Shown here in pieces: positions 48,940 through 58,149 of a stretch of DNA of 64,000 nt. The stretch covers positions 372,001 to 436,000 of the forward strand of contig NZ_FNFO01000004.1 of assembly GCF_900100765.1 (NCBI RefSeq), in the 5' to 3' direction. Each line of letters begins with the position of its first letter. Position 1 is the first letter of the stretch. This DNA comes from Catalinimonas alkaloidigena. Its GTDB lineage: Bacteria > Bacteroidota > Bacteroidia > Cytophagales > Flexibacteraceae. Below the pieces are notes generated by a model. The model searched no databases. It saw only the letters and a list, made by a program, of their open reading frames with translations, and was not told where the DNA came from. A program made the position numbers and the translations under genes.

Positions 48940-50229
48940 TCAAAAGCCGAAAACCTGCGGCAGCCAGAGGCTGATTTCCGGAATGTAGGTGACCAGCATC
49001 AGGGCGGCGATCATGGCCAGGAAGATCGGCAAGAGTGGTTTGATGACCTTGTCGATGCTGACGTTCGCGACGCTACACCCGATGAACAGCACCGACCCCA
49101 CCGGCGGGGTGCACAGCCCGATGCAGAGGTTCAGCACCATCACGATGCCGAAGTGGACGGGGTTCATGCCCAGTTCCTGCACGACGGGCAAAAAGATCGG
49201 CGTGAAGATGAGTACGGCGGGCGTCATGTCCATGAAAATGCCGACGAAGAGCAGAATCAGGTTGATGATGAGCAGCACGACGATTTTGTTATCGCTCACG
49301 TTGAGCAGTACCTCCGTGACACTCTGCGGAATGTTTTCGTACGACATGGCCCACGACATGCCGATGGACGTGCCGATGAGCAGCATAACGATGGCCGTGG
49401 TCGAGACAGTTTCCAGCAGAATGGAAGGCAGGTCTTTCACTTTCACCTCACGGTAGATCAGCATCGACAGCACCAGCGTGTAGAGCACCGCCACGGCCGA
49501 GGCTTCGGTCGCCGTAAAGATGCCCGCCACAATGCCGCCGATCACCACGACCAACAGCAGCAGACTCGGTAGTGCTTCCAGGAATTTGCGCGCGGCGTAA
49601 CCCAGAGAAAAGCGGTCGCCCACCGGGAATTTTTTGCGGTAGGCCCAGATGCCCGCCACGATCATAATGAACAACCCCGCCAGAATCCCGGGCACATACC
49701 CCGCCAGAAACAGGGCCGCGATGGACACCCCGCCGCTTGCCAGCGAGTAGACGATCAGCACGTTGCTGGGCGGAATCACCAGTCCGGTTGTGGCCGACGT
49801 CACGTTGACGGCCGCGCTGAACTGCGGCGAATATCCTTCTTTCACCATCCGGCTGTTCATAAAGCCACCGATGGCCGAGGCCGCCGCCGCTGCCGAACCT
49901 GAAATGGCGCCGAACAGCATACAGGCCAGGATGTTCACGTAGGCCAACCCGCCCGGAAACATGCCCACCAGCGACTTGGCAAAGTCGATCAGGCGGGCCG
50001 CAATGCCCCCCCGGTTCATCAGTTGCCCCGCCAGGACAAAAAACGGAATCGCCAGCAGCGCAAAACTGTCCAGCCCGGTCGCCATCCGCTGCGCCAACGT
50101 CGTGAAAGCGGGCAGCGAATCGATGCTGACCAGCAACGTGAGCATGGTGGAAACGCCGATGCTGAACGCGACGGGCACACCGATGGCCAGAAGAATGACG
50201 AAACTGACAACAAGCACAAAAATTTCCAT
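48940..50229 (-). CDS. dctM: TRAP transporter large membrane subunit DctM
   Basis: 429 residues, about 12 helices, of the DctM family: LLAIPFFVLAGQLMNRGGIA, GSAAAAASAIGGFMNSRMVK, VIPPSNVLIVYSLASGGVSI and CIGLCTPPVGSVLF. It is the ion-coupled channel part of a tripartite ATP-independent periplasmic transporter and works with DctQ and DctP encoded upstream. A NUDIX gene separates it from dctQ, which is not the usual order. Substrate likely a hexuronate because of the neighbouring enzymes. Confidence 0.95.
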   Translation of the reverse strand: MEIFVLVVSFVILLAIGVPVAFSIGVSTMLTLLVSIDSLPAFTTLAQRMATGLDSFALLAIPFFVLAGQLMNRGGIAARLIDFAKSLVGMFPGGLAYVNILACMLFGAISGSAAAAASAIGGFMNSRMVKEGYSPQFSAAVNVTSATTGLVIPPSNVLIVYSLASGGVSIAALFLAGYVPGILAGLFIMIVAGIWAYRKKFPVGDRFSLGYAARKFLEALPSLLLLVVVIGGIVAGIFTATEASAVAVLYTLVLSMLIYREVKVKDLPSILLETVSTTAIVMLLIGTSIGMSWAMSYENIPQSVTEVLLNVSDNKIVVLLIINLILLFVGIFMDMTPAVLIFTPIFLPVVQELGMNPVHFGIVMVLNLCIGLCTPPVGSVLFIGCSVANVSIDKVIKPLLPIFLAMIAALMLVTYIPEISLWLPQVFGF

Positions 50230-50310
50230 GTGGGGATTGGGATTTGGGTAATGGGGTAATGTATGGTTAGATCCGCCTTCTCCGAGGGGATCTAGATGCG
50301 ATAATATCCA

Positions 50311-50712
50311 TCAGAGCAGTTCGCCGCGCTCTTTCAGATAGGCGAAAATCTTTTTGTCTACGTGCGAAACCAGGTCGAGGTCGGCGTAAGTCAACCACCG
50401 CAACTCTTCAATTTCGTTGCTGGCGGCCAGCTCGCCTTCGTACTGCGCCCGGTAACAGGTCATTTTCACCATCACACCGACCGGCTTTCCGTCTGCCTGC
50501 GCGGTGAAGGTGCCCACGTAGTCGATGGTCGACGGGATCAGGGTAACGGTCAGTTCCTCTTGCACTTCGCGGATCAGCGTTTCTTCGTCCGTCTCGTCGG
50601 CATCACGCTTGCCGCCGGGAATGTAAAATTTCGCCTTTCCCCGGGAGCGCGTGCCCAGAATTTGCCCGTCCTTCAGGTAGAGGTAAGCGATTTTGTCAAT
50701 TTCTTGTGTCAT
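50311..50712 (-). CDS. NUDIX hydrolase
   Basis: 133 residues. The Nudix box is complete as G-x5-E-x7-REVQEE (FYIPGGKRDADETDEETLIR, then EVQEELTV), with Thr at the usual Gly position near its end. Such enzymes hydrolyse nucleoside diphosphates linked to other groups. The ATG at 50712 comes one base after the dctQ stop; an alternative ATG at 50736 would overlap dctQ. Its position between dctQ and dctM is odd and no link to transport is known. Confidence 0.88.
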   Translation of the reverse strand: MTQEIDKIAYLYLKDGQILGTRSRGKAKFYIPGGKRDADETDEETLIREVQEELTVTLIPSTIDYVGTFTAQADGKPVGVMVKMTCYRAQYEGELAASNEIEELRWLTYADLDLVSHVDKKIFAYLKERGELL

Positions 50713-50713
50713 G

Positions 50714-51229
50714 TCACCGAACGGGTTCCGGGTCATCGTCCAGCATGTCGCCCTGGTGCTCTGCCGGGAAGGCCGCTTCCATCAGACTGACCACGCTGTA
50801 ATAAATAATGAGCAGACCACTGAGGGGCAACACGGCATAGACGTAGCCCAACGGTACGCCCAACGCGGGCGAGTGCTGATCGAGGTACAGGGTGATGTAG
50901 ACGAGGTTGATGCCGCCGATCACCATGACCAGCAGTGCGAATACAATGACGATGGAGTTGATGATGAGGCTCAGGCGACGCTTCCCGGCCGGTGAGGCTT
51001 TTTGCGGGACGATGTCGATGGCCAGGTGCATGCGCTGTCCGGCGGCGTAGGCGGCCCCCAGCGTACCCACCCAGATCAGCAGGTAGCGGGCCAGTTCATC
51101 GGTAAATGCGCTCGGGCGTCCGACGACGTAGCGCGAAGCGACCTGCCAGAGGACGTTGATGGTCATCGTGGCCATGAGAATAACAAGGACAATCCCAAGG
51201 ACGCGATCGACGTGGCGGCGAAATTTCAT
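50714..51229 (-). CDS. dctQ: TRAP transporter small membrane subunit DctQ
   Basis: 171 residues with four membrane helices. The opening VLGIVLVILMATMTINVLWQ with VASRYVVGRPSAFTDELARY is the DctQ signature, followed by LLIWVGTLGAAYAAGQRMHL. It couples the binding protein DctP and the permease DctM. 25 bp after dctP. Confidence 0.95.
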   Translation of the reverse strand: MKFRRHVDRVLGIVLVILMATMTINVLWQVASRYVVGRPSAFTDELARYLLIWVGTLGAAYAAGQRMHLAIDIVPQKASPAGKRRLSLIINSIVIVFALLVMVIGGINLVYITLYLDQHSPALGVPLGYVYAVLPLSGLLIIYYSVVSLMEAAFPAEHQGDMLDDDPEPVR

Positions 51230-51254
51230 TGATGCAGAAATGCGGTTCAGGTGG

Positions 51255-52262
51255 TTACAATTGAGGTGATCCGGGGTTGTCGGTCTCGACCGCCCGGATG
51301 CGCTGCACCAGATCGTACAGCGTGGGGTCGTTTTTCAGGGCGTCGTACAACGGCTGCACTTTCTCTTCGAACGGTTTTTTGTCCGGATAAATAATCTCCA
51401 CCCCCGCTTTCTGCACTTCCCGCAGCGATTCCTCTTCCGACTCGGCCCATAGCCTCCGCTCTTCCGGCACCGAGGCGTCGACAGCGGCCTGCAACCATTC
51501 CTGTTCTTCCGGACTTAGTTTGTTCCAGACTTTGGTACCGATCAGCAGCACGTCGGGCAGGGCCGTATGCTCGTCGAGCGAATAGTATTTACACACTTCG
51601 TAGTGGCGCGAGGAGTAGAAGCTCGGCGGGTTGTTCTCCGCGCCATCGACCACCCCCTGTTGCAGCGAGGTGTACAGCTCGCCGTACGACATCGGCGTGG
51701 GCGAACCGCCCATGATGCTGACCATGGCCTGGGCCGTGGGGCTTTCCATCACGCGGATCTTCAACCCCTGCAAATCGGCCGGGGTGTTGATCGGGCGATC
51801 TTTCATGTAAAAGCTGCGGCTCCCGGCATCGTAGAAGCACAGGCCGCGCAGCCAGTAATTTTCGCCGTCGCGCAGAATCTCTTCGCCAATGGGTCCGTCC
51901 TGCACGGCAAACTGGTGGGCCCGGTCGCGGAACAGGTACGGCAGCCCCAGCACCCGAAACTTGGGCGAGAAGCTTTCCATCACCCCGGCCGAGACTTTGG
52001 TCATGTCGAGGCTCCCGATCTGGAGAAGTTCGAGGGCCTCCCGCTCGGAGCCGAGTTGCTGGCTGGGGTAAATTTCGAGGGTCATCTTCCCGCCCGATAC
52101 CTGTTCCAGCTGCTGCTTCATGTAGACCATGCCTTTGTGGACGGGGTGCGTCACGTCCAGGCCATGCGCCAGTTTCAGGACGCGCGTCTGGCGGGCCTCT
52201 TCACACGAAGCGAACAAGAGGAAACTAAAGACGAGAAGAAATGCGGTGGCGTTGATTTTCAT
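51255..52262 (-). CDS. dctP: TRAP transporter solute-binding lipoprotein DctP
   Basis: 335 residues. Lipoprotein signal ending at C20 (LLFASC), then a DctP domain: LKLAHGLDVTHPVHKGMVYM, GGKMTLEIYPSQQLGSEREA, the substrate Arg in GLKIRVMESPTAQAMVSIMG and GVVDGAENNPPSFYSSRHYE. The Arg and Asn/Glu residues are those that bind the carboxylate of uronates and other organic acids in this family. The ATG at 52262 starts the signal peptide. Confidence 0.94.
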   Translation of the reverse strand: MKINATAFLLVFSFLLFASCEEARQTRVLKLAHGLDVTHPVHKGMVYMKQQLEQVSGGKMTLEIYPSQQLGSEREALELLQIGSLDMTKVSAGVMESFSPKFRVLGLPYLFRDRAHQFAVQDGPIGEEILRDGENYWLRGLCFYDAGSRSFYMKDRPINTPADLQGLKIRVMESPTAQAMVSIMGGSPTPMSYGELYTSLQQGVVDGAENNPPSFYSSRHYEVCKYYSLDEHTALPDVLLIGTKVWNKLSPEEQEWLQAAVDASVPEERRLWAESEEESLREVQKAGVEIIYPDKKPFEEKVQPLYDALKNDPTLYDLVQRIRAVETDNPGSPQL

Positions 52263-52275
52263 AAAAAATGGTTTT

Positions 52276-52758
52276 ACCACTAAGACGGTAAGAACACCAA
52301 GTAGCACTAAGACAAAGGCAAGCTCGAAAAGGCGTCTGTCACCAGCGGCACCAGGCTCTTGGTAATGTTTTCAGCGTGAAAGTTAATCAATAGACCTTTG
52401 GGCATCCCGGTTAATTTCAGATACGATAGCAACTGCGCTTTGTAGAGCGGAATGATGGTTTCTACCGCTTTCAACTCCACAATCACGGTTTCCTCGACTA
52501 CAATATCCAATCGCAGGGCACCACCCAATTCCCGCCCTTTATACTGCACAGGCACTTGTACCTGAGAATTATAAGATAAGTGGCGACGCGACAACTCCTC
52601 CAGCATACACAATTCGTACACCGACTCCAGCAATCCCGGCCCGAGGTGTTTGTGTACCTCAATCGCACAACCTACTACGTCGAATGCGAGCTGATTGACC
52701 GATTGCTGTGTAAGTCTCATCCCTGAGTGCCGCTTCGTGCCCTTACTTCCTTAGTGGT
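52276..52758. repeat. inverted repeats enclosing the GxxExxY gene
   Basis: Left arm 52276-52292 (ACCACTAAG, three bases, GTAAG) and right arm 52742-52758 (CTTAC, three bases, CTTAGTGGT) are reverse complements at 14 of 17 positions. They enclose only the gene at 52307-52720 and fill the eda-dctP gap almost exactly (8 bp to the eda stop, 13 bp to the dctP start). In the operon mRNA they could pair and loop the gene out. Confidence 0.75.
52307..52720 (-). CDS. GxxExxY protein (PDDEXK_3 nuclease-fold)
   Basis: 137 residues, standard length. The name-giving motif is in LGPGLLESVYELCMLEEL, and the nuclease-like core in LRLDIVVEETVIVELKAVET keeps the D...ExK residues. Members are small, widely scattered in Bacteroidota, Planctomycetes and Leptospira genomes, and of unknown function. 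It is transcribed with the operon but has no relation to uronate metabolism, and it is enclosed by its own inverted repeat, which marks it as an inserted cassette. Confidence 0.9.
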   Translation of the reverse strand: MRLTQQSVNQLAFDVVGCAIEVHKHLGPGLLESVYELCMLEELSRRHLSYNSQVQVPVQYKGRELGGALRLDIVVEETVIVELKAVETIIPLYKAQLLSYLKLTGMPKGLLINFHAENITKSLVPLVTDAFSSLPLS

Positions 52759-52766
52759 GAAGGTAT

Positions 52767-53441
52767 TTACTTCTTCTTCACGCGCTGCACGATGGCCATG
52801 GCTTCACGGACGCCGGCGGCCAGTTCCTCCCACTTGCCCTCTTTGATCAGGTTGGTCGGGAACAGCTTAGACCCCATGCCCACGCAAGCCACGCCCGCGT
52901 CGAACCAGGGCTTCAGGTTTTCTTCCGTCGGCTCTACCCCACCCGTCGGCATGATGCTCGTCCAGGGGCAGGGGCCTTTCACGGCCTTCACGAATTCGGG
53001 ACCGCCGACCTGCGTGGCCGGGAAAATCTTCACGACTTCGGCACCGAGTTCTTCCGCGTAGTTGATCTCCGACAGGGAGCCGCAGCCCGGTGACCAGAGG
53101 ATCTTGCGGCTGTTGCAGACCTTCGCCATGTCGGGTTTCAGGACCGGCGACACGATGAAGCTCGCGCCCAGCTGAATGTACAGCGAAGCCGTGCCCGCAT
53201 CGACCACCGAGCCCACGCCCAGCATCATCTCGGGCGTTTCTTTCGCCGCCCATTTGTTCAGTTCGCCGAACGTTTCGTGGGCGAAGTCGCCGCGGTTGGT
53301 AAACTCAAAAACGCGTACGCCGCCGTCGTAACAGGCTTTGAGTACGTTCTTGCAGGTTGCTAAATCAGCGTTATAAAAAACGGGCACCATGCCGGTCTCG
53401 GCCATTTTGAGTGCCACTTGTATGCGTGTAAATCGAGACAT
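52767..53441 (-). CDS. eda: 2-dehydro-3-deoxy-phosphogluconate (KDPG) aldolase
   Basis: 224 residues, class I aldolase barrel of the Eda family. Schiff-base lysine K138 is in AEVVKIFPATQVGG; also GVRVFEFTNRGDFA (catalytic Glu region), LGVGSVVDAGTASLYIQLGA and IMPTGGVEPTEENL (phosphate site). It splits KDPG into pyruvate and glyceraldehyde-3-phosphate, the last step of the uronate pathway. The genes on both sides of it in the operon are the two repeat-bound cassettes. Confidence 0.94.
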   Translation of the reverse strand: MSRFTRIQVALKMAETGMVPVFYNADLATCKNVLKACYDGGVRVFEFTNRGDFAHETFGELNKWAAKETPEMMLGVGSVVDAGTASLYIQLGASFIVSPVLKPDMAKVCNSRKILWSPGCGSLSEINYAEELGAEVVKIFPATQVGGPEFVKAVKGPCPWTSIMPTGGVEPTEENLKPWFDAGVACVGMGSKLFPTNLIKEGKWEELAAGVREAMAIVQRVKKK

Positions 53442-53467
53442 GTAAGTTGGGATGTCCGGAAAACCGA

Positions 53468-53885
53468 AGGACCGGAGTCCGGAGCGGTTAAAAGTGTTCT
53501 TTTCTAATTTGAATGTATTTGCTCAGCATCGCCGACACTTTGCGCGTATGCGCTATTAAGGCACCTCCCACTTCAGGTGAGAGGATGCCTATGTCGATTG
53601 CGATGTAAAGCTGGGTACGCAGTTCGCCACAGGACGCCCGGGCAATGGTCAGGAAACGAACGAAGTCCTGATTCGAATTCCGCTCAAATCCTTCCGCTAT
53701 GTTGGAAGGTACGGATACGCTGGCGCGCTGCATCTGATCCCGTAGTCCGAAATCACGACAGCCTGCCAGCGCCTTGTACATGGCGACGCTCAACTGCACC
53801 CCTTCCTTCCACACGTCCAGGTCCTCGAACCGCTGAATCTTTGCCATCTTCGTTCGTTATCCGGCCTCCGGACTCCTGTAGTCCT
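53468..53885. repeat. inverted repeats enclosing the S23 gene
   Basis: Left arm: AGGAC (53468-53472), GGAGTCCGGAG (53474-53484), CGG (53485-53487). Right arm: CCG (53861-53863), CTCCGGACTCC (53866-53876), GTCCT (53881-53885). The three blocks pair in order as 5, 11 and 3 bp with small bulges. The left arm ends one base before the S23 stop codon and the right arm begins 13 bp upstream of its start, so the repeats fit the gene tightly. Confidence 0.8.
53488..53847 (-). CDS. four-helix-bundle protein (S23/23S rRNA intervening-sequence family)
   Basis: 119 residues. RFEDLDVWKEGVQLSVAMYK, LRDQMQRASVSVPSNIAEGF and FLTIARASCGELRTQLYIAI are the classic motifs of the S23 family, proteins first seen inside 23S rRNA intervening sequences of Leptospira and Coxiella and related to the Avd protein of diversity-generating retroelements. 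The bundle has a basic face that binds nucleic acid in Avd. Here the gene stands in the kdgK-eda gap, enclosed by an inverted repeat, without rRNA or reverse transcriptase nearby. Confidence 0.92.
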   Translation of the reverse strand: MAKIQRFEDLDVWKEGVQLSVAMYKALAGCRDFGLRDQMQRASVSVPSNIAEGFERNSNQDFVRFLTIARASCGELRTQLYIAIDIGILSPEVGGALIAHTRKVSAMLSKYIQIRKEHF

Positions 53886-53904
53886 GCCTCCCCGCTAGCG
53901 CTAG

Positions 53905-54942
53905 CTAGCGCGATACCCGTCCGCTGGCGTCGCCGCTCATCAGCTTTTCTACTTCGTCGGCAGTGACGAGGTTGAAGTCGCCTTTGATCGTGTGCTTGAG
54001 GCAAGAGGCCGCCACGGCGAAGTTGAGGGCATTCTGGTCGTTTTCGGGGTAGGTCAGCAGGCCGTAGATGAGCCCCCCCATGAACGAGTCGCCCCCGCCC
54101 ACGCGGTCCACAATGTGGGTGATCTGGTAGGTCGGCGATTCGTAAAGTTTCTGGCCGTCCCACAGAACACCCGCCCATGAGTTGTGGTTGGCGTTGATTG
54201 AGCCGCGCAGGGTGATGATCACCTTCTTGGCCCGGGGGAATTTCGCCATCAGCTGCTTGCCGACCGACTCATAGGCCGCGCCTTCCACGTGTCCGGCCGT
54301 GACGTCGACGCCTTCCGGATGGATGTCAAACACCTTTTCGGCGTCTTCTTCGTTCCCCAGAATCACGTCGCAGCCTGCCACCAGTTCGGGCATGACCTCA
54401 CCGGCTTTTTTGCCGTATTTCCACAGGTTTTTGCGGTAGTTCAGGTCGGTCGATACCGTGATGCCTTTGGCGTTGGCCGCTTTGATGCCCTCCAGGCAGG
54501 CGTCGGCTGCTCCCTGAGAAATGGCGGGGGTAATGCCGGTCCAGTGGAACCACTCGGCGCCGTCCAGTACCTGATCCCAGTCGATCATGCCGGCTTTGAT
54601 TTCCGAGATGGCCGAATGCGCCCGGTCGTACACCACTTTACTGCCCCGGCTTACCGCGCCGGTTTCCAGAAAGTAAATGCCGACCCGGTCGCCGCCACGC
54701 AGGATTTTGCTCGTGTCGACGCCGTATTTGCGCAGTTGCATGATGGCCGCTTCGCCGAGGTCGTTTTTGGGCAGGCGAGTCACAAACGCCGCATCGAAGC
54801 CATAATTCGCGAGCGAAACCGCTACGTTGGCTTCGCCGCCGCCGTAGGTCGCCTCAAAGCTTTCGGCCTGGGAAAACCGCAAATATCCCGGCGTGGCCAG
54901 CCGGAGCATAATCTCACCAAAGGTGACTACTTTTTTAGACAT
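53905..54942 (-). CDS. kdgK: 2-dehydro-3-deoxygluconate (KDG) kinase, PfkB family
   Basis: 345 residues. PfkB sugar kinase with VTFGEIMLRLATPGYLRFSQ at the start, substrate loop TYGGGEANVAVSLANYG and the anion hole/catalytic base D285 in DRVGGGDSFMGGLIYG. It phosphorylates KDG to KDPG, the substrate of the downstream aldolase. The AT-rich gap upstream has a run of imperfect 8-bp repeats (54956-54987). Confidence 0.93.
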   Translation of the reverse strand: MSKKVVTFGEIMLRLATPGYLRFSQAESFEATYGGGEANVAVSLANYGFDAAFVTRLPKNDLGEAAIMQLRKYGVDTSKILRGGDRVGIYFLETGAVSRGSKVVYDRAHSAISEIKAGMIDWDQVLDGAEWFHWTGITPAISQGAADACLEGIKAANAKGITVSTDLNYRKNLWKYGKKAGEVMPELVAGCDVILGNEEDAEKVFDIHPEGVDVTAGHVEGAAYESVGKQLMAKFPRAKKVIITLRGSINANHNSWAGVLWDGQKLYESPTYQITHIVDRVGGGDSFMGGLIYGLLTYPENDQNALNFAVAASCLKHTIKGDFNLVTADEVEKLMSGDASGRVSR

Positions 54943-55258
54943 GGGTTGTGTGTATTGAGTTACTGGGTTATTAGGTTAATGCGTAATTTTAGTTTTGTTT
55001 CAGGACGCGTTATCGCCTTCGTCAAAAGCGCAGCGATCGTGCGCTGTCCCTTCTGACACAGAGCGGTGTGCCTGACACGCGAACAGGAGAAAATTTACTT
55101 CCTGATGGTGATAGCGTCCAGATTCTTCAGCGATCTTGTCGGTCATCGGCCTTGTTCTTTCTGCAAGCATTTTGGGAAGCGAAGCCTTTTCTCAACGTAG
55201 GGCTTTCTTGCTTCTCAAAACGTTTCGTCCGGAAACCGATTAACCTCTCAACCGATCA
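54943..55258. other. spacer between uxaC and kdgK
   Basis: No gene in 316 bp. Next to the kdgK start is a run of four imperfect 8-mers of the form TGAGTTAC/TGGGTTAT/TAGGTTAA/TGCGTAAT (54956-54987). A GC-rich near-palindrome GCGCAGCGATCGTGCGC lies near 55030. A separate promoter for kdgK is possible. Confidence 0.5.
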
Positions 55259-56677
55259 CTAAAATCCAAAGAACTCGTTGGCGTTTTTGTAACAGACGCG
55301 CTCGACCAGTTGGCCGATCCAGTTGATTTCGGAGGCAGGCAACAGGCCCGCTTCCACGTCGTCGCCCAACAGGTTGCAGAGGATGCGGCGGAAGTAGTCG
55401 TGCCGCGGGTACGAAAGGAAGCTGCGCGAATCGGTCAGCATTCCGACGAAGCGGCTCAGCAGTCCGAGGTGCGAGAGGGCGTTCATCTGCCACTCCATGG
55501 CCTCCTTCTGATCGAGGAACCACCAGCCCGAGCCGAACTGCATCTTGCCGGCGATGGACCCATCGTTGAAATTGCCCATCATCGTGGCGAACATGTAATT
55601 GTCCGACGGGTTCAGGTTGTAAACAATGGTCTTGGCCAGTTGGTCGTTGTTGTCCAGCCGCGAGAAGAATTTCGACATCGCCTGCGCCTGTGAAAAATCG
55701 CCGATGGAATCGAAGCCGGTGTCGGGTCCGAGCGTGCGCATCATGCGCTGGTTGTTGTTCCGCAGCGCGCCGAGGTGGAACTGCTGCGTCCAGCCTTTGC
55801 TGTGGTCGAGCAGCGCCAGTTCGAACAGGATGGCCGATTTCAACTTGCCGATCTCCTCTTTCGAGAGCGACTGTCCGCCACGCACTTTGCTGAACAACTG
55901 CCGCGCTTCGGCATCGGTGTAGTCGTCGGCATAGATCTGCTCCAGACCGTGGTCGGATAGTTTTCCGCCCATTTCGGCAAAGAAGTCGTGCCGCTTTTTG
56001 AGGGTTTCCAGCAGATCGTCGTACGACTGGATGTCCATTCCGGCGGCGGCGCTCAGCTTTTCGAGGTAGGCGTTGTAAGCCTCGGCATTTTCGACCGCCA
56101 TTGCTTTATCGGCCCGGAACGTAGGCAGCATTTTGGTGCCGAAACCGTCTTCCCTCACCTGCTTGTGGTAGTCGAGCGAGTCGGCCGGATCGTCGGTCGT
56201 GCACACCACCCGCACGTCGAAGTATTCCATGATACCCCGCGCGCGGAATTCCGGCGTCTGGAGCTTTTCGGTACACGCGTCGTAGATGCTCCGCGCCGTT
56301 TCGGGCTTCAGGATGCGTTCTACGCCAAACGGACGCTTCAGTTCCATGTGCGTCCAGTGGTAGAGCGGGTTGCGCATCGTGTAGGGAACGGTCTCGGCCC
56401 ACTTTTCGAACTTGGCGTAGTCGTCGGCATCGCCAGTGCAATAGCGCTCGTCGATCCCATTGGCCCGCATGGCCCGCCACTTGTAGTGGTCACCCGCCAG
56501 CCAGATCTGCGTCAGGTTCTTGAACTGCCGGTTTTTGGCCACTTCTTCGGGCGGCAGGTGGCAGTGGTAGTCAATGATGGGCTGCTCCTTGGCAAAGTCG
56601 TGAAACAGCGCCCGTGCCGTCTCGGTATGCAGCAGAAAATCCTCGTCCAGAAAGGCGGGGTGTAAGGTGGTATCCAT
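55259..56677 (-). CDS. uxaC: uronate isomerase
   Basis: 472 residues, normal length for UxaC of the amidohydrolase superfamily. Hallmarks: FAKEQPIIDYHCHLPPEEVA (metal-binding HxH), WTHMELKRPFGVERIL, VVCTTDDPADSLDYHKQ and near the end SYPRHDYFRRILCNLLGDDV. It converts glucuronate to fructuronate and galacturonate to tagaturonate. First intracellular step for hexuronates brought in by the TRAP system. A 26-bp palindrome lies 122 bp upstream of its start. Confidence 0.96.
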   Translation of the reverse strand: MDTTLHPAFLDEDFLLHTETARALFHDFAKEQPIIDYHCHLPPEEVAKNRQFKNLTQIWLAGDHYKWRAMRANGIDERYCTGDADDYAKFEKWAETVPYTMRNPLYHWTHMELKRPFGVERILKPETARSIYDACTEKLQTPEFRARGIMEYFDVRVVCTTDDPADSLDYHKQVREDGFGTKMLPTFRADKAMAVENAEAYNAYLEKLSAAAGMDIQSYDDLLETLKKRHDFFAEMGGKLSDHGLEQIYADDYTDAEARQLFSKVRGGQSLSKEEIGKLKSAILFELALLDHSKGWTQQFHLGALRNNNQRMMRTLGPDTGFDSIGDFSQAQAMSKFFSRLDNNDQLAKTIVYNLNPSDNYMFATMMGNFNDGSIAGKMQFGSGWWFLDQKEAMEWQMNALSHLGLLSRFVGMLTDSRSFLSYPRHDYFRRILCNLLGDDVEAGLLPASEINWIGQLVERVCYKNANEFFGF

Positions 56678-56798
56678 GGTATTGGGGTTTCAGGTCAAGC
56701 GTCGAAGGTGACTGGCGAAGGCTCCGTACGGGCCACTAGCCAAGGTTAAACCTAGGGAATCTGCGGTAAGGCTGATTCATGCGACGGTTATTTTTTTA

Positions 56799-56824
56799 TG
56801 CAAACGATCCCGGGATCGTTTGCA
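56799..56824. promoter_or_regulatory. 26-bp perfect palindrome, LacI-type operator candidate
   Basis: The half site TGCAAACGATCCC is followed immediately by its exact reverse complement, giving 26 bp with no mismatch. It lies between uxaE (stop 56899) and uxaC (start 56677). Its TGCAAACG...CGTTTGCA arms look like sites of LacI/GntR-type sugar regulators. A hairpin role is also possible, but no T-run follows. Confidence 0.7.
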
Positions 56825-56898
56825 GATTCGAGTCTCAAAGTTGCGTTTTCACTTGGTAAGAACAGCGTCAGGGCGATTCATAACCACATTTCTCCCGA

Positions 56899-58149
56899 TT
56901 ATTTTCCCAGAAACAGGGGGCGGATGTGCCGCTCCAGCAGGTTGTACGTCACCCGCTTGCCGACCGCCGTGCGGTGTTCTTTCAGCAGGCGGTAGAACTG
57001 CTCGCCCCGCTGCGCAGCCAGTTTGTAGGCCGTGTGCATCAGTTGCCGGAAACTGGAATTGAACTGAGGATGGTGGGGGTCGTGCTCCAGGGCGTGAACC
57101 ATCTGGTCGGCCGACCAGCCGCTAACTTCCTTGGGATCAGGGAGTTTATCGAGCGACACGTCGATCACGTTTGCGTAAGGTTTGGTCAGTTCTTCGTAGT
57201 GAGCGTGGGCATATTGGTACATTTCCTTCGTCATTTCCAGCGCCTCTCCGCCTGCCGCCGCCAGTCCGATCAGTTCTTCCAGCCAGGTGGTGCCGGCCGT
57301 TTTGAGGTGCACGCCGGCGTCGTGTTTCCGGATGATCCGGTGAATTTCCGGGTACAGCGAAAATTTATCGCTGCCCGTGTGGACGCTGAGTTTCAGGTTC
57401 GCGGGCAAGCCGAACTTCTTCACGGCAAAGGCAATCACCGCCACGTCGGCTTCGAATTCGAGCGCAAACTGCTCCACGTTGCCGACGTAATCGACGCCTT
57501 TGTTGAACCGGCCCGAGAATTTGGGCGCGATGGTCTGGGCTTTCACATGTTCGCGCGCCAGCATGCTGAGGATGAACAACAACTCCGGCGGCGTCTGCGG
57601 GGCGGGCACTTCGTCCATCGACACTTCTGCCACAAAACCGTCTTCGCCTTTGCGCTCTGCGAGGTAGCGGTAAATCTTGCCCGCCTCTTTGGCCGCACCG
57701 AGGTATTGCTCGGCCACCTTGCGCAGGAACGCTTCGCTAATCTCAAACGGCACTTCGATGCCCGGAATGGCCAGGTCGCCCACATACTCGAAGTGGGTCA
57801 TCACAAATTCGTCTACTTCCTGGGGCGATACCGGCTGCCCGATGTAGTCGGCCACGTCGATCGTGAAGAAGTTGGCCTGATCGACAAACGGCTCCACGTT
57901 GGTCAGGTTGATGTGGTCGGCGTCCACAAAATAAGGCGCTTCCCAGCCCAGCGCGGCGGTGGCCTCGGCGGCTTCCTGCCAGGTAGCGGCGGGCGTGGAG
58001 CCTACAGTCTGATGCTCGCGGTTCGATTTGTTCCAGACCGGCGCAATGTCGGCCCCTTCTTCTTTCGCCCGGACGACGGCCCGAAGCTGCGCTTCGCCCT
58101 GGTGGGCAAACCGGTCACCCATTCCGAACGAATACTTTGGAAGTTGCAT
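56899..58149 (-). CDS. uxaE: tagaturonate epimerase family protein (UxaE-like)
   Basis: 416 residues. The conserved opening YSFGMGDRFAHQGEAQLRAV with PVWNKSNREHQTVGSTP and the metal-site-like segments YFVDADHINLTNVEPF, LKLSVHTGSDKFSLYPEI and DAGVHLKTAGTTWLEELIGL match the UxaE family, which epimerises tagaturonate and fructuronate at C-4. This joins the galacturonate branch to the fructuronate-mannonate branch, so only one set of reductase and dehydratase is needed. The ATG at 58149 begins the conserved part; earlier in-frame codons look non-coding. Confidence 0.87.
   Translation of the reverse strand: MQLPKYSFGMGDRFAHQGEAQLRAVVRAKEEGADIAPVWNKSNREHQTVGSTPAATWQEAAEATAALGWEAPYFVDADHINLTNVEPFVDQANFFTIDVADYIGQPVSPQEVDEFVMTHFEYVGDLAIPGIEVPFEISEAFLRKVAEQYLGAAKEAGKIYRYLAERKGEDGFVAEVSMDEVPAPQTPPELLFILSMLAREHVKAQTIAPKFSGRFNKGVDYVGNVEQFALEFEADVAVIAFAVKKFGLPANLKLSVHTGSDKFSLYPEIHRIIRKHDAGVHLKTAGTTWLEELIGLAAAGGEALEMTKEMYQYAHAHYEELTKPYANVIDVSLDKLPDPKEVSGWSADQMVHALEHDPHHPQFNSSFRQLMHTAYKLAAQRGEQFYRLLKEHRTAVGKRVTYNLLERHIRPLFLGK

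Follow-up and report, generated by a model that had tools for sequence, protein, structure and literature searches.

An S23 gene lies between inverted arms in the kdgK-eda spacer

The window (the whole 64-kb stretch of DNA that was analysed) carries a gene of the S23, or 23S rRNA-intervening-sequence, family between the sugar kinase gene kdgK and the KHG/KDPG aldolase gene eda. Genes of this family are widespread and have no assigned function; in rRNA they have been treated as part of parasitic intervening sequences, which RNase III cuts from the RNA without ligation. The features of the locus are the following.

52266-52311, minus strand: 3' arm of the GxxExxY gene (inverted score 20)
52307-52720, minus strand: GxxExxY gene (TIGR04256; PF13366, PD-(D/E)XK), the sole match in this genome, adjoining eda
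52723-52768, minus strand: 5' arm of the GxxExxY gene, with CACTAAG-like units (inverted score 20)
52767-53441, minus strand: eda (KHG/KDPG aldolase), downstream of the S23 cassette and on the same strand as S23
53469-53491, minus strand: 3' arm of the S23 gene, with an exact core at 53474-53484, extending to the S23 stop codon (53488-53490)
53488-53847, minus strand: S23 four-helix-bundle gene, 119 aa (ORF call, profile search, predicted fold)
53857-53884, minus strand: 5' arm, ahead of the S23 start codon, with an exact core at 53866-53876 and an outer AGTCC at 53880-53884
53905-54942, minus strand: kdgK (sugar kinase), upstream of the cassette and on the same strand as S23

An earlier note, made from the sequence, had placed the S23 gene here, and we confirmed this by ORF calling and by profile searches, in which the protein matched PF05635 (E 2.3e-33, 115 bits against a curated cut-off of 33.8), TIGR02436 (106.9 against a cut-off of 24) and also NF008912. 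The gene is 57 nt from kdgK and 46 nt from eda, within a kdgK-eda spacer of 463 nt, and thus has these two genes as neighbours and lies outside any rRNA gene. Judging by its neighbours, the locus resembles an operon for hexuronate catabolism. The TRAP transporter genes dctM, dctQ and dctP (48940-52307) are found downstream of eda and the GxxExxY gene, and uxaC (55259-56677) upstream of kdgK.

The same note had described arms of 5, 11 and 3 bp, and all three parts are present. The core CTCCGGACTCC at 53866-53876 has its exact 11-bp reverse complement at 53474-53484. The inner CGG of the 3' arm ends at 53487, abutting the S23 stop codon, the inner CCG of the 5' arm (53861-53863) lies 13 bp from the start, and the outer parts, GGAC(C)/AGTCC, are set off from the core by a bulge. 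There is no third exact copy of the 11-mer in the 64-kb window. Markov shuffling of the two intergenic pieces produced an exact inverted match of at least 11 in 3 of 1000 shuffles; the window arms have an alignment score of 13, which 17 of 2000 shuffles equalled or exceeded. When 160-nt flanks were used instead, the corresponding counts were 5/1000 and 54/2000. Pairing with flanks swapped from other S23 loci gave a score of at least 13 in 7 of 152 cases. Taken alone, the window arms are therefore only modestly significant. Folding of the 463-nt spacer RNA gave a z of -6.0 against shuffles. In the minimum free energy fold the arms pair elsewhere in the spacer, and only in the centroid do the two arms close the gene, in a 15-bp stem with a bulge. 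RNAduplex gave -70.7 kcal/mol for the two flanks of the window S23 gene (z -1.8 against shuffles). Rfam detected no family in nine loci at the gathering threshold, nor in window positions 50000-58000 at E up to 1, and the phage records held no match to the window S23 at E 1e-3. The cassette, as read from its sequence, has no transposase gene.

The cassette interrupts a conserved gene pair

kdgK and eda are adjacent in many Bacteroidota, and they run in the same direction in 69 of the 80 kdgK loci that we fetched. The gap between them is 7-246 nt in 68 of these loci and 559 nt in one; eda was not found in the other 11, some of which are cut off by contig ends. None of the 80 loci was matched by the window S23 in tblastn. 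Gaps of 7-246 nt are too short for an S23 gene, which supports the view that the window cassette was inserted into an operon that is otherwise conserved; these 68 loci represent the empty state that the earlier note had proposed to look for in genomes lacking the gene. The closest fully named kdgK, that of Flexithrix dorotheae, shares 86% protein identity, and no empty allele is near enough for an alignment of the spacers.

Complementary arms are a general feature of S23 loci

The genome of the window has eight PF05635 matches, and 40 of the 59 sampled genomes of relatives, this one included, have matches. We scored each locus by reverse-complement alignment of the 160 nt before the start codon with the 160 nt after the stop codon, and as a control swapped flanks, pairing the 5' flank of one locus with the 3' flank of another. 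In a first set of 77 loci, which are part of the matches listed, the own flanks had a median score of 18 and the swapped flanks 10. A second set of 86 loci, again part of the matches listed, came from one genus, in which 37 of 40 genomes had S23 matches. Together these make 163 loci, with best-scoring matches favoured, at 85 sites, a number at least one too high, as L172 is counted separately although its flank and arms put it at the site ahead of lpd. L059, which has masked bases, was left out of the comparison with ordinary genes, of the RNAduplex comparison and of the threshold comparison (84 sites, 162 loci) and kept in the swapped-flank and lag-7 array counts; L191 and L194 repeat loci already in the set and were not used.

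Over all 163 loci the median complementarity was 19 for own flanks against 10 for swapped flanks, with 105 loci, or 50 of the 85 sites when one locus is taken per site, above the 95th percentile of the swapped pairings. A score of at least 16 was found at 54 of 84 S23 sites, compared to 15 of the 482 ordinary genes that the kdgK loci provided. At least one of three thresholds (inverted score, lag-7 array or lag-8 array) was passed by 140/162 loci and 72/84 sites. Six of the other seven S23 copies in the genome of the window score 18-24 and one 14. The window copy, at 13, passes none of the three thresholds, like 12 of the 84 sites in all; it is therefore taken as a worn or atypical copy that is assigned to the class on the strength of the other loci. 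By RNAduplex energy, only 30 of 84 sites fall beyond the 5th percentile of the swapped pairings.

The sequence of the arms is not shared. The 11-bp arm, which had been proposed as something to look for around other S23 copies, occurs in 4 of 391 loci, three of them containing the window's own copy, ruling it out as a common end sequence. The arms agree within one locus and not between sites, so that there are no conserved terminal inverted repeats of the kind that define IS elements or MITEs. The concern in the earlier note that the arms might not be conserved around other copies therefore holds for their sequence and fails for their architecture, which is general. One contig of a relative (G058 contig 10, 60-68 kb; L019, L048, L053 and L066) has five S23 matches within about 7 kb, and among those read, the three loci with an inverted score of at least 14 differ in their units.

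The arms are built from seven-base units that vary by site

Mean identity across the 77 loci of the first set was 0.464 at lag 7 and 0.433 at lag 14, compared to 0.26-0.30 at the remaining lags; lag 8 reached 0.32, because some loci have 8-nt units. Lag-7 arrays above the 99th percentile of shuffles were found on the 3' side of 46 of the 85 sites, L059 with its masked bases among them, and at 44 on the 5' side, with median lengths of 41 and 36.5 nt, respectively, or about five or six units. Only 4.9% of the flanks of ordinary genes were above the same cut-off. The unit varies by site, examples on either strand being GTACTTN, TGGTTNA, CAGTNNN, CCAATAA and AATTCAT.

When the 7-nt units of one arm were permuted at 93 period-7 loci, complementarity fell from 20.5 to 17.4, and the own order of units beat 95% of the permutations in 18 of the 93, a count biased towards the own order, in which the arm had been selected. 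The effect is small, indicating that complementarity comes mostly from one unit used by both arms in mirror orientation, and it gives no support for selected pairing beyond the shared units. Precise base pairing as a conserved feature thus finds no support in the permutations; it is the shared units that are kept more than the pairing. For pairs of loci at the same site with S23 identities of 0.5-0.65, own pairing exceeded cross pairing in 120 of 132 pairs, while the counts were 54/100 at 65-80% identity and 31/71 above 80%. The two arms of one locus change together at S23 identities of 50-65%, and the arms of same-site pairs above 0.65 are interchangeable. The lower-identity pairs may include cases in which one cassette has replaced another.

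In 400 kb of the genome of the window, 24 period-7/8 segments were found compared to 33 in a Markov control, showing no enrichment, and only two of them have an inverted partner, the stronger being at the sole S23 gene there. The window itself has 12 periodic segments (control, 1), none with an inverted partner. Elsewhere in the same genome (L291 14121-14165, contig 3) there is a near-perfect TCTGAAC heptamer array with no S23 match near it; an inverted partner was not found within 2.5 kb downstream.

S23 cassettes lie mostly in the sense direction within operons

Taking one locus for each of the 85 sites, both neighbours are in the sense direction relative to S23 at 56 sites, both antisense at 8, mixed at 16 and uncallable at 5, and the bias of 56 to 8 has a p of 3e-10. 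The neighbours' strands were called by a longest-ORF rule that was wrong in 2 of 16 cases on repetition (downstream of L005 and upstream of L007), and the counts are therefore approximate. The next gene of L005 is lpd and the upstream gene of L007 half of a pump, both sense, making both loci sense on both sides.

Fifteen sites are common to two or more genomes, and the site ahead of lpd is occupied in the genome of the window and in three other families. With respect to both flanks, S23 has opposite orientations in the two members of 10 locus pairs, five of which we examined; these fall on two sites. The S23 proteins of these five pairs are 68% and 25-31% identical, which makes independent insertion likelier than inversion for at least one flip.

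One candidate for a cassette acting inside a coding sequence was dropped. In L007 (contig 2 of the same genome, 1-3306) an S23 cassette lies between two halves of an RND pump gene, which match ACR_tran 2-416 and from 418 on, and we had considered it an intervening sequence cutting the mRNA of that gene. Nine further loci with close pump homologues also have the gene broken into two frames at this point, and S23 separates the frames in just one of the nine (G178); a long frame of 1051 aa was seen in one (G119) among the 28 matches listed. Because close homologues are split at this place, mostly with no S23, the split of the pump is older than the cassette.

The same sites occur filled, empty and with hairpins that have no gene

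At one site (L050) we compared 30 loci of one genus, from 40 genomes with a match. S23 is present in 8, the spacer is 16-42 nt in 12, and spacers of 77-237 nt with no S23 match make up the other 10, some of which hold S23 relics or arms. The 8 comprise two unrelated S23 types, one with ATGGACT-like and the other with CCAATAA-like units; one of them is 5'-truncated.

The site ahead of lpd was compared in 30 loci from 38 genomes with a match, one of which had no flank, leaving 29. S23 is present in 10 of these. Four have array hairpins with no gene, in which spacers of 145-150 nt contain inverted TACTTGA-like arrays, and one of the four is in a genome (G076) that has no S23 match at all. The other S23-free spacers are 92-116 nt long in 13 loci and 35 nt in one, and a 249-nt spacer (G061) is an internal deletion of an S23 cassette. 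On folding, one of the four array hairpins had a z of -4.3 and the others -1.4 to -1.9; of the 18 gene-less spacers folded at this site, only two had a z below -2. Six lpd-site loci of one genus (L348, L351, L355, L357, L362 and L368) have spacers of about 100-116 nt with a GGGCTG...CAGCCC-like hairpin, in most cases with period-7 stretches alongside. Rfam gave no match in the two spacers of this kind that were searched (L344 and L351).

Similar arms flank other genes and plasmid copies

The window contains two unrelated genes with arms, S23 and GxxExxY, one on each side of eda. Among 26 GxxExxY loci the median score was 20 for own flanks and 10 for swapped flanks, and 16 of the 26 were above the 95th percentile. 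Period 7 as a rule was not borne out for these arms, in which only lags 8 and 9 are weakly raised (0.316 and 0.304).

We also took ten plasmid S23 loci from 26 records with a match. Inverted scores were 24-34 in Nostoc (two loci), Geminocystis, Azospirillum and Riemerella, and 14-16 in Stanieria, Aulosira and Calothrix, the 5' arm of the last being more than 100 nt upstream. The Pseudanabaena copy has long arrays on both sides and a score of 7. The Gemmatirosa copy scored 36, a value that is uncertain because the match is long and gappy and the gene ends are unannotated. Similar arms thus flank most of the ten plasmid S23 genes examined, which are mainly cyanobacterial, and many GxxExxY genes.

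The S23 protein is mostly under purifying selection and occurs in genomes with no reverse transcriptase match

The AlphaFold2 model of the window S23 protein has four helices (pLDDT 97.3). Foldseek matched it to the S23 structures 2gsc and 2rld and, more weakly, to the diversity-generating retroelement (DGR) accessory protein Avd (4dwl; probability 1.00, TM about 0.73-0.86, E 0.02-0.07). Median dN/dS of S23, from unsaturated pairs (91/252), was 0.09-0.18 at four sites and 0.53 at a fifth, indicating purifying selection at all but the last.

The idea that each S23 sequence determines its unit found no support: in a Mantel test on 29 sites of one genus, the relatedness of the S23 proteins and the similarity of the units gave a rho of 0.046, and 234 of 1000 permutations were as high. 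The Xanthomonas S23 protein is a homopentamer (excerpts of PMC4990558), and it is tempting to speculate that arrays of five to six units match the pentamer.

In DGRs a reverse transcriptase gene is expected beside the accessory gene, and there is none beside the window S23. The one RVT_1 match in this genome lies beyond the window at about 157 kb on the same contig, roughly 270 kb away from S23. RVT_1 matches occur in 19 of 40 S23-bearing and 5 of 19 S23-free genomes. The 21 S23-bearing genomes with no RVT_1 match led us to reject a reverse transcriptase partner as a requirement.

A possible intervening sequence in mRNA

Across the class, cassettes are inserted between conserved genes, with arms that match within and not between sites; they lie mostly in sense within operons, are present or absent at the same site in different genomes, and have counterparts at a shared site in array hairpins with no gene. 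We propose, with a probability of roughly 0.45, that the window cassette is a worn member of this widespread class and that it works in mRNA as the intervening sequences do in 23S rRNA. The S23 gene and its arms would form one insertion cassette, an ORF between inverted arrays of short degenerate units, which would be co-transcribed with the operon. Its arms could then pair into a long, imperfect stem that has S23 in its loop. This stem may be cut by an RNase specific for double strands, RNase III being an example. Such a cut would part the kdgK and eda sections of the transcript and release a short S23 RNA. The S23 protein, a predicted four-helix bundle with an Avd-like fold, would bind the nucleic acid of the element, and a reverse transcriptase in the same genome would be unnecessary for carrying the cassette. 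The direction of the cassette, which is that of the operon, together with its pairable arms fits an intervening sequence in mRNA.

A serious rival, though a less probable one, is that the cassette is an insertion element acting at the level of DNA. The arrays would then be iterated ends to which S23 or a trans-acting recombinase would bind as double-stranded DNA, RNA pairing would be incidental, and the sense bias would reflect the need of S23 for the promoter of the operon. Units shared in mirror orientation rather than precisely paired favour such an element, and the two unrelated S23 types that each bring their own units to one intergenic site, the presence/absence polymorphism and the S23 genes flipped at shared sites are all consistent with it. 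However, the terminal sequence is not conserved between sites, the cassette has no transposase gene, and the low Mantel correlation argues against a simple code by which S23 would recognise its unit.

We consider it improbable that the host has the heptad arrays as hairpin elements in their own right, whether regulators or products of slippage and hairpin correction, with S23 landing in them as a passenger. The S23-free array hairpins at the lpd site, including that of the genome with no S23 match, and the lone array elsewhere in the genome of the window would fit this, as would the heptamer arrays of other bacteria, described with no mention of S23 in the main texts (excerpts of PMC4679880, PMC4692102), and the stems of 7-nt units in a Nostoc trnL intron (excerpts of PMC4476775). 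Against this, the 400 kb examined contain just the two segments with an inverted partner, with the stronger at the S23 gene, and one gene-less spacer at the lpd site clearly derives from an S23 cassette by internal deletion. Finally, although the window copy falls below every class threshold and its score recurs in swapped pairings, it is very unlikely that an ordinary small gene merely happens to lie within inverted repeats formed by chance, given the rarity of the exact core in shuffles and the scores of the other seven copies in the genome.

The reading of the cassette as an intervening sequence in mRNA can be extended, more tentatively, to a broad class of small cassettes whose ends are set by unit period and mirror orientation with no fixed sequence. 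This class might carry at least two unrelated cargoes (S23 and the nuclease-like GxxExxY), occupy mainly operon spacers in several phyla, alternate at the same sites with gene-less hairpins and act on the transcript, with the 23S rRNA intervening sequences as a special case. If the arms are general, S23 and GxxExxY genes gain a definable element with ends, so that insertion and loss can be counted, S23 becomes linked to scattered reports of heptamer repeats, and there is a concrete test for intervening sequences in bacterial mRNAs. Sites that hold a gene-bearing version in one species and a gene-less one in a relative offer natural test material.

Relation to known systems

Heptamer arrays have been described with TAACTGA units in Beggiatoaceae, Cyanobacteria and Bacteroidetes, with GGGAATC in Xanthomonas, partly as inverted pairs, and with GGGGA(T/C)T in Nostoc (excerpts of PMC4679880, PMC4692102). 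They resemble the arms in their 7-nt units, their largely intergenic location and, in Xanthomonas, their inverted pairs, and these studies differ in following one chosen unit each; the terms S23 and four helix do not occur in the main texts as excerpted. We found no description of unit-array arms around S23 or GxxExxY genes in the excerpts of the open-licence literature, those of PMC5524665 and PMC8700078 included. The P6b element of the Nostoc trnL group I intron is also an RNA stem of degenerate 7-nt units in which units switch and the structure is kept, but it lies within an intron and its loop apparently holds no gene (excerpts of PMC4476775).

Avd shares the fold of the window S23 model, whereas S23 has no adjacent reverse transcriptase. 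To our knowledge, the Correia or NEMIS elements of Neisseria carry no S23 gene. These elements are similarly small, with inverted repeats that RNase III can bind and that may be cleaved or protected, controlling adjacent genes, but unlike the cassettes they have a conserved core (excerpts of PMC2649163).

The likeness drawn in the earlier note, that to the geometry of 23S rRNA intervening sequences, is borne out across the class, in which complementary flanks enclose an S23 ORF. The 23S rRNA intervening sequences likewise have complementary ends with an S23 (PF05635) ORF inside, a location that tolerates interruption and a patchy presence (excerpts of PMC4990558), and CPR bacteria are reported to have an S23-type ORF within insertions in 16S and 23S rRNA, which makes the family known at several rRNA sites (excerpts of PMC11270868). 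The cassettes differ in lying between the protein-coding genes of an operon and in having arms that are arrays of units varying by site.
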